From positions 1,108,082 to 1,172,081 of the forward strand of contig NZ_JDTH01000002.1 of NCBI RefSeq assembly GCF_000710615.1: 64,000 nucleotides of DNA, given 5' to 3'. The stretch is from Haladaptatus cibarius D43 (lineage in GTDB: Archaea > Halobacteriota > Halobacteria > Halobacteriales > Haladaptataceae). The notes below the pieces were generated by a model, which was not told where the DNA came from, did no database searches, and saw only the letters and a program-made list of their open reading frames with translations. The position numbers and the translations under genes were made by a program. This document shows positions 36,140 through 37,806 of this stretch, one piece after another; position 1 is the stretch's first letter; the number at the start of each line of letters is the position of its first letter.

Positions 36140-36303
36140 TCGCGGGACGAGAGCGACTGTTTTACACCTATAAAGCTACGTGAAACTGTTACTGAGGAGA
36201 TGGAATATCCGGTAATTAGCTAATGGGATATTCGCGACCAAGTATTGTATATTATTTATTTTTTAATAGAATGTTATATATGCGCTAAAGAGATAGTTAA
36301 CTT

Positions 36304-36669
36304 ATGGACGACAAGACATCAATTGTATCGGGTTTACTAGTGGCAACCACTGCAACGGGAATGATGTATTTTAGCTCTTTTTGGAACTTAAAGTTAGCCA
36401 GTGTTACATTCACAACATATTTTATTGGTGTGGGACTATTGATTAAATATCGTCATCTCATACAATCATCTAGCAATCTTTTTTCTGCGCTATTTGCATT
36501 AACTATCACTCTTGGATCATATCTCGGAGTAACCTCAGATCTTCCAATTAGTTCTGATTTACGAATATCACTAATTATTTTAATATATGGTATTGCTATG
36601 TGTCTATCTGGCATAGTTCTTAGAATTTCACTCAGCAATTATAAAAATCACAAAGAGATAACTGCTTAA
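36304..36669 (+). CDS. Four-helix membrane protein of an AT-rich islet (possible immunity protein)
   Basis: This 121-residue protein has four hydrophobic helices (SGLLVATTATGMMYFSSF, VTFTTYFIGVGLLIK, LFSALFALTITLGSYL and LIILIYGIAMCLSGIVL) and a short basic tail. Codon use is A/T-rich, unlike gatA. It ends 17 bases from the end of the convergent halocin-like precursor gene. Small multi-helix membrane proteins next to bacteriocin precursors are commonly immunity proteins, but no sequence family supports this. Confidence 0.65.
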   Translation: MDDKTSIVSGLLVATTATGMMYFSSFWNLKLASVTFTTYFIGVGLLIKYRHLIQSSSNLFSALFALTITLGSYLGVTSDLPISSDLRISLIILIYGIAMCLSGIVLRISLSNYKNHKEITA

Positions 36670-36686
36670 AATGTTTTATTAATTAT

Positions 36687-37454
36687 CTAGTCGTATTCAC
36701 AAGCGTATCCCACTTTTGTCCTGCTAACCTTATAATTATCGTACACGTTACAATTATCACCAACGACCCACAACGCTAAATTACCACCCGAAGCAATAAC
36801 GCATCCGACTAAGCCACCAGTGGCACAGCTCAGACCCCAAGCAGCAGCAACAATTGCTAAACAATCATAGTTCCAATTGGTACAATTTTCAGAGACCACA
36901 GTATCGCAACCACAGCGATAACAAACGCCTCCTCCCCCTCCACCACCGGGACCAATAGGCTTGCGAATAGTAGCATTATCACCAGTATTTCTGGTACTAC
37001 TAGCGACATATTTTTCGGTAACAGTTGTCACACTCTCATTTTGAACAGTAATTGAGGTTTCTTCATGTTCATCAGTATTTATAATATTCGCGCTTGTGGG
37101 CCTATCTGTCCCGCTGGTCCAGCGGAACACTCCATCAGTTTCAACCTCGGAATTTGATAGTGGGATAGCAGCTAGCTTGAAATCATTCCCCTCCGGAGCT
37201 ATTATCTGTCTATATGTTCCCTCCCCGAATTGGGAAGTCCAACCATGATCTGAAATATAATCTAAAATCTTCAATGATTCTTTTTCATTTTGAATGTTTG
37301 AGATGGTTTGCTCAATCTCAGTTTCAGACAACCTTTCGACATCCCGACGGGATTCTGAGGCTCCAACTGTAGAAGGAAGAAGCGATGCACTACTTGCAAC
37401 GCCAAACTTTTTTAATACGCTTCTACGGTTTATTCTGTCATTTCTAGACATCAT
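36687..37454 (-). CDS. Tat-exported cysteine-rich precursor, halocin C8-like
   Basis: This 255-residue protein has a twin-Arg signal INRRSVLKKFGVASSASLL (residues 8-26) and a pro-region of about 140 residues. A poly-Gly linker (GPGGGGGGGV at about 167-176) leads into a Cys-rich C-terminal domain of about 78 residues containing nine Cys (CYRCGC, DCLAIVAAAWGLSCATGGLVGC, then more) and a hydrophobic Gly/Ala core. This order matches halocin C8 precursors, in which the C-terminal peptide is the antimicrobial and the N-terminal part gives immunity. The spacing of Cys differs, so this may be a new halocin type. The gene is AT-rich and convergent with a small membrane protein. Confidence 0.72.
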   Translation of the reverse strand: MMSRNDRINRRSVLKKFGVASSASLLPSTVGASESRRDVERLSETEIEQTISNIQNEKESLKILDYISDHGWTSQFGEGTYRQIIAPEGNDFKLAAIPLSNSEVETDGVFRWTSGTDRPTSANIINTDEHEETSITVQNESVTTVTEKYVASSTRNTGDNATIRKPIGPGGGGGGGVCYRCGCDTVVSENCTNWNYDCLAIVAAAWGLSCATGGLVGCVIASGGNLALWVVGDNCNVYDNYKVSRTKVGYACEYD

Positions 37455-37806
37455 CTATATGTTTGTTCATATCCACTTTAATTTAATGAAGGGTATAATA
37501 AACATGTATCGTGTATTTATTATTGTCCTCTAAAATAATATGGTCAATTAAGAAAACAACTCAAAATTTTCTTGAGTACTCCAATTAATCGCGTGCAAAT
37601 TCATCGAGCCAAATATTGGAGCGAAGCAGCCAGAAACAGCGAGTGTAGACGAACTAGAAACTGTTTGTAAAAATTCTCTCCTATTCATTGAACCACAGTA
37701 GATTGGTGTGTGAATTAAATTTTCTTAAGGAAAATAGACGCAAGACAAGGAAGTCTCCATCCTCTAAAAACTATTGCTGTTCGTGAACCTACGAAAAGAA
37801 TCCTGT
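37455..37806. other. AT-rich islet end with a Tat/lipobox microprotein
   Basis: Apart from the 46-codon frame at 37548-37688 (separate entry) nothing protein-like is visible. The sequence is A/T-rich up to about 37790, then returns to host composition at the winged-helix gene. The promoter of the halocin-like gene (leftward) should lie at 37460-37510. Confidence 0.45.
37548..37688 (-). CDS. 46-residue Tat signal/lipobox peptide or lipoprotein remnant
   Basis: The frame MNRREFLQTVSSSSTLAVSG is followed by Cys, giving an RREFL twin-Arg motif and the lipobox AVSGC for N-terminal lipidation. The 25 residues after the Cys end in a stop without a domain. It may be the 5' end of a lost Tat lipoprotein gene, such as a partner of the halocin-like precursor, or a genuine tiny lipoprotein. 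It lies 93 bases upstream of the precursor start on the same strand, so the two may share a transcript. Confidence 0.5.
   Translation of the reverse strand: MNRREFLQTVSSSSTLAVSGCFAPIFGSMNLHAINWSTQENFELFS

Follow-up and report, generated by a model that had tools for sequence, protein, structure and literature searches.

A convergent gene pair in a low-G+C islet

The window, a 64,000-nucleotide stretch of the Haladaptatus cibarius D43 genome, contains an AT-rich islet in which the gene for a Tat-type precursor converges with the gene for a small membrane protein, their stop codons lying 17 nt apart. The features of the locus are listed below in window coordinates.

36143–37791, no strand: AT-rich islet flanked by gatA and the gene of an HTH regulator (flank alignment, GC)
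36304–36669, + strand: membrane protein of 121 aa with 3–4 helices, candidate dedicated immunity protein (recurrent neighbour; Haloferax mucosum orthologue 52% identical)
36687–37454, − strand: Tat-type precursor of 255 aa, candidate halocin-type bacteriocin (ORF; Hfx. mucosum orthologue 55% identical)
36690–36923, − strand: Cys-rich C-terminal domain, residues 178–255, predicted active peptide (sequence, profile comparison)
36741–36743, − strand: Tyr238 (TAC), a Cys in aligned relatives of the W class defined below (alignment)
36927–36953, − strand: glycine linker GPGGGGGGG, residues 168–176, presumed close to the processing site (sequence)
37110–37349, − strand: pro-domain core, residues 36–115, remotely homologous to the N-terminal (HalI) domain of halocin C8 (hhalign)
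37356–37454, − strand: Tat signal region, residues 1–33, NRRSVLKKFG... (sequence; twin Arg aligned throughout the family)
37548–37688, − strand: 46-aa Tat/lipobox ORF, not conserved, possible lipoprotein-gene remnant

The islet has a G+C fraction of 0.378 vs 0.613 in its flanks, in agreement with the AT-rich setting that a preliminary description of this DNA had given the gene pair. In the closest sister genome examined (G166, locus L136), the flanks are 92% identical up to 36142 and again from 37792, and gatA lies 178 bp from the HTH regulator gene, vs 1649 bp in the window; by this alignment, the cassette is an inserted islet of ~1.6 kb. Among nine genomes of the genus, a full-length match to the precursor came from the window's genome only. 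The preliminary description had also placed in the islet's system a 46-residue Tat/lipobox peptide encoded upstream on the same strand. The ORF is indeed present, but the 600 nt of upstream sequence at 22 related precursors held no counterpart, and we rejected it as a cassette member; it is probably a lipoprotein-gene remnant that lies outside the cassette.

The interval from gatA to the HTH regulator gene is also occupied in G190, where it holds a Tat-signal Amidase_2 protein (L137 1852–2913, E 2.9e-30), by domain match a candidate peptidoglycan hydrolase that would be secreted and antibacterial. Killing of bacteria by peptidoglycan hydrolases from archaea has been reported (PMC12352652), and on the basis of two genomes this intergenic site may be an antagonism spot.

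A HalI-like pro-domain joined to a distinct Cys-rich domain

Sequence and alignment place a Tat signal, a pro-domain and a Cys-rich C-terminal domain in that order within the window protein, and every element of the architecture described earlier, including the poly-Gly linker and the nine-Cys tail of ~78 residues, was confirmed in the 255-residue ORF at 36687–37454(−). From the RR motif, we infer that the precursor is exported by the Tat pathway. The nine cysteines occupy residues 178, 181, 183, 191, 198, 210, 218, 235 and 252, the core of the domain is hydrophobic (GRAVY 1.43 over residues 198–235), and the predicted peptide of residues 178–255 would have a reduced mass of ~8.3 kDa if cleaved there. 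No Pfam or NCBIfam model matched the precursor or the membrane protein by hmmscan, nothing linked the C-terminus to a family of enzymes or adhesins, and a search of solved structures gave no convincing match; AlphaFold pLDDT was 31.8 for the precursor, from a two-sequence alignment only, and 33.8 for the Cys domain alone, too low for a usable model. The protein is probably the precursor of a secreted antimicrobial peptide whose class the family databases lack.

Sequences are known for few halocins. The textbook example of toxin and immunity arising from one gene is halocin C8. We take locus L058 to be the halocin C8 precursor, recognised through its mature sequence. For profile comparison, the halocin side was assembled from loci found via their C-terminal domain only, which avoids selection on the N-domain. 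Compared with these TIGR04449-selected precursors, the pro-domains of the W and K classes (see below) gave an hhalign probability of 96% (E 6e-9; 0/100 column shuffles) and a score of 60 vs a shuffle maximum of 10.4, with a weaker signal for the five core W sequences alone (probability 38%, E 3e-4, score 31 vs a maximum of 12, 0/100). The aligned stretch corresponds to residues ~36–115 of the window protein, and by these measures a distant homology links the pro-domain to HalI in halocin C8-like precursors. The C-domain, when compared with the halocin C8 domain, gave hhalign probabilities of just 0.1–0.6%, with 30–83 of 100 Cys-preserving shuffles scoring as high. TIGR04449 (curated cut-off 24 bits) likewise failed to match the C-terminal domain at E ≤ 10 by hmmscan and had no match in the whole genome, while exceeding its cut-off in 51/392 related genomes, L058 included; PF22862 (curated cut-off 27 bits), against which L058 scores 164 bits, did not match the window N-domain at E ≤ 10.

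At the level of profiles, then, the Cys domain has no kinship with that of halocin C8, and the pro-domain is common to both. By either defining model the window protein would not count as a halocin C8 member; it would act like a halocin. The earlier suspicion of a distinct C-terminal class, separate from the halocin C8 families, is thereby borne out at a profile probability below 1%, and the proposed resemblance to halocin C8 precursors, with an immunity part at the N-terminus, survives in the HalI homology of the pro-domain and fails for the C-domain, TIGR04449 and PF22862. What the two have in common is a Tat signal, a remotely homologous N-domain and a hydrophobic Cys-rich peptide of similar size carried on a single precursor; what sets the window protein apart is the unrelated C-domain, the failure of both models, the Gly linker and the adjoining convergent membrane gene, which is absent at halocin C8 itself. 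We found no description of the C-terminal class in the literature readable to us, most halocin papers being subscription-only, so earlier publication is possible. Since no similarity between the C-domain and halocin C8 could be detected, the antimicrobial function that we propose for it rests on gene context.

Distribution and relatives of the precursor

Profile searches of haloarchaeal genomes recovered the C-domain of the window protein, which defines the W class, in about nine haloarchaea: the window, Haloferax mucosum, G087, G302, G352, G081, G205 (where the precursor is broken by a stop), G410 and a Haloterrigena salifodinae plasmid. Hfx. mucosum, the sole match in a related-locus search across genomes, has both genes (L134/L085), arranged and oriented as in the window, at 55% (precursor) and 52% (membrane) amino acid identity, and between the two pairs the third codon positions are the most changed and the second the least. 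Orthologues with a codon bias of purifying selection argue that the gene pair is not a chance arrangement. On the Haloterrigena plasmid, pHTS138, the 26% identical JMJ58_RS20945 (WP_204749461.1), annotated only as a hypothetical protein, resembles the Hfx. mucosum orthologue in having the same C-terminal class and a small membrane gene downstream. Each W cassette lies 11–24 points below its flanks in G+C and one is plasmid-borne; viral contigs and phage records contained no relatives.

Two wider classes, K and M, have a W/Y-x-C motif and CxxC pairs in common. The W/K/M grouping was made by eye on alignments and is supported by profile comparison, in which the C-domain profiles matched with probabilities of 91% (W-K) and 85% (W-M) and 0/100 shuffles with fixed Cys columns. 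Linkers of the GGG/PGG type occur in 4/7 W, 2/8 K, 4/6 M and 3/26 C8-type precursors. M-class precursors (L118–L120, L037–L041) carry an extra tail of ~45 residues or more beyond the Cys region, a hint that their active peptide may be internal.

These long M-class tails would also suit a Cys domain with a non-antimicrobial role on this Tat/pro-domain scaffold, be it as a secreted signal, an inhibitor of proteases or a surface protein, as would a C-domain unrelated to any characterised halocin that has a model. We nevertheless judge such a role quite improbable, given that antagonism genes, and not housekeeping ones, typically show such a patchy spread, insertion as low-G+C DNA, presence on a plasmid and exchange of a small membrane partner.

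A recurrent small membrane protein gene beside the precursors

The convergent membrane protein, earlier described as four-helix, has 3–4 hydrophobic segments and proved to be a recurrent partner of such precursors. A small ORF with at least three TM segments lies no more than 150 nt from the 3′ end in 5/8 W loci vs 2/383 control genes (0.5%; p 1.6e-8), the controls being drawn under one set of ORF rules from ~460 kb of these or related genomes, window included; L158, a further W-class locus, has none. Counting nine W loci, a small 3–4-helix gene is found downstream within 150 nt in 5/9 and within ~510 nt in 7/9, the more distant cases being Hfx. mucosum (~510 nt) and the Haloterrigena plasmid (~480 nt); G205 and G410 (2/9) had no partner close downstream. 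The pattern recurs in K and M loci, in 4/12 loci retrieved later (within 150 nt) and in 7/29 TIGR04449-type loci, some of which are closely related, so that p-values are approximate. Nearly all pairs of W precursors align (z 8 or more, mostly 8–35), with one exception, whereas their partners are detectably homologous in only the two pairs that have the closest precursors (z 47 and 25; the rest below 3). Partners that appear to diverge together with their precursors are the pattern expected of cognate immunity proteins.

A conserved haloarchaeal 4-TM family of ~125 aa (L185–L190, L194), with the motif G[YS]WD.QL ... FGVHMDLP, occurs without precursor neighbours, and the window partner belongs to this broader family; the idea that the partner's family is restricted to precursor neighbourhoods was rejected, as relatives stand alone. 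The window partner may therefore have been recruited from the general 4-TM family, or may mimic it.

Immunity could instead reside in the precursor. ProC8 is exported by the Tat pathway and matures into HalI and the peptide (PMC11509114), and a helix-loop-helix at the HalI N terminus is reported as essential for halocin C8 immunity in the title of Mei et al. 2008, a reference of PMC11509114. With a pro-domain homologous to HalI, the window peptide might be a bacteriocin whose own pro-domain gives immunity as in halocin C8, leaving the membrane protein to serve otherwise (as an export aid, receptor or regulator) or to be a resistant copy of the target. The existence of partner relatives without precursors fits this arrangement, as does the lack of such a partner at L058–L061, the halocin C8 precursor included. 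We regard it as unlikely, because the partners adjoin precursors far more often than the background would give and diverge along with them in the usual manner of cognate immunity. Same-strand 3–4 TM genes also lie directly downstream of TIGR04449-type precursors at L056, L062, L063, L074, L075 and L081, so separate immunity genes may exist within this halocin C8-like family as well.

Apparent loss of one conserved cysteine

The relatives usually have an even total of cysteines (8 or 10), and the window copy has nine because of a Cys-to-Tyr change at residue 238. One Cys of the window copy is therefore probably unpaired; Tyr238 may be a true mutation or a sequence error, either of which fits. 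Since the change takes one transition, and since the solitary 46-aa lipobox ORF has no counterparts elsewhere, the window copy could be a once-active bacteriocin islet that is decaying, short of a disulfide and flanked by what is left of a lipoprotein gene. Both ORFs are intact, though, comparison with the Hfx. mucosum pair shows codon-position differences in keeping with purifying selection, and a single Cys change need not destroy activity, all of which makes decay rather improbable.

A candidate two-gene bacteriocin cassette

We consider it probable that the locus is a two-gene, halocin-type bacteriocin cassette of haloarchaea in which the membrane protein gives the producer immunity. The precursor would be exported folded via Tat, as its signal indicates, and the HalI-like pro-domain would hold the Cys-rich peptide inactive or confer immunity. 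An extracellular subtilisin-like protease, for which the window's genome has 14 subtilase matches, could then cleave near the Gly linker, freeing a disulfide-rich hydrophobic peptide of ~78 residues that would attack the membranes of related haloarchaea. Recurrent adjacency and co-divergence point to the convergent membrane protein as the cognate immunity protein, with the pro-domain perhaps also protective. Against this proposal stand the conserved Cys missing from the window copy, the Gly linker found in part of the family only, the partner family members without precursors and the 2/9 W loci without a partner. Of the halocin-type bacteriocin islet originally suggested, the architecture, the pro-domain homology and the recurrent partner are retained, and the lipobox peptide is not.

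Bacteriocins of the Gram-positive type pair a peptide with an adjacent small multi-TM immunity gene, and the two diverge together. The window cassette would work by analogy to such a bacteriocin with its separate small membrane immunity protein, but it is archaeal and apparently Tat exported, has a long pro-domain, and lies in an islet without a dedicated transporter gene. Halolysins activate secreted precursors, and HmHapP (HFX_0892), paired with HlyR4, is likewise secreted as a precursor whose activation is attributed to a subtilisin-like protease outside the cell (PMC12893001). The active part of HmHapP is an N-terminal helical fragment, whereas the candidate in the window is the Cys-rich C-terminus.

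More broadly, the evidence is evenly poised on whether these loci belong to a modular haloarchaeal bacteriocin system, in which a conserved Tat/HalI-type pro-domain would bear several unrelated, exchangeable Cys-rich C-domains, the halocin C8 domain being one, with a co-diverging membrane immunity gene swapped along in many classes and low-G+C islets moved into shared antagonism sites. A sister class that combines this pro-domain with an unrelated peptide and a separate membrane partner would extend the range of bacteriocins known from archaea. A comparison of the pro-domain with the membrane gene would make the immunity question testable, and the common pro-domain offers a search handle for precursors that current models miss.

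The window's genome also encodes a second Tat precursor, of 226 aa (L002 1498–2178; G000 contig C5, near 81862), with an N-terminus similar to that of the window protein and a Cys-rich C-terminus of another kind (CWTETSCTNDECDWFCL...); it may be a further peptide of this scheme.
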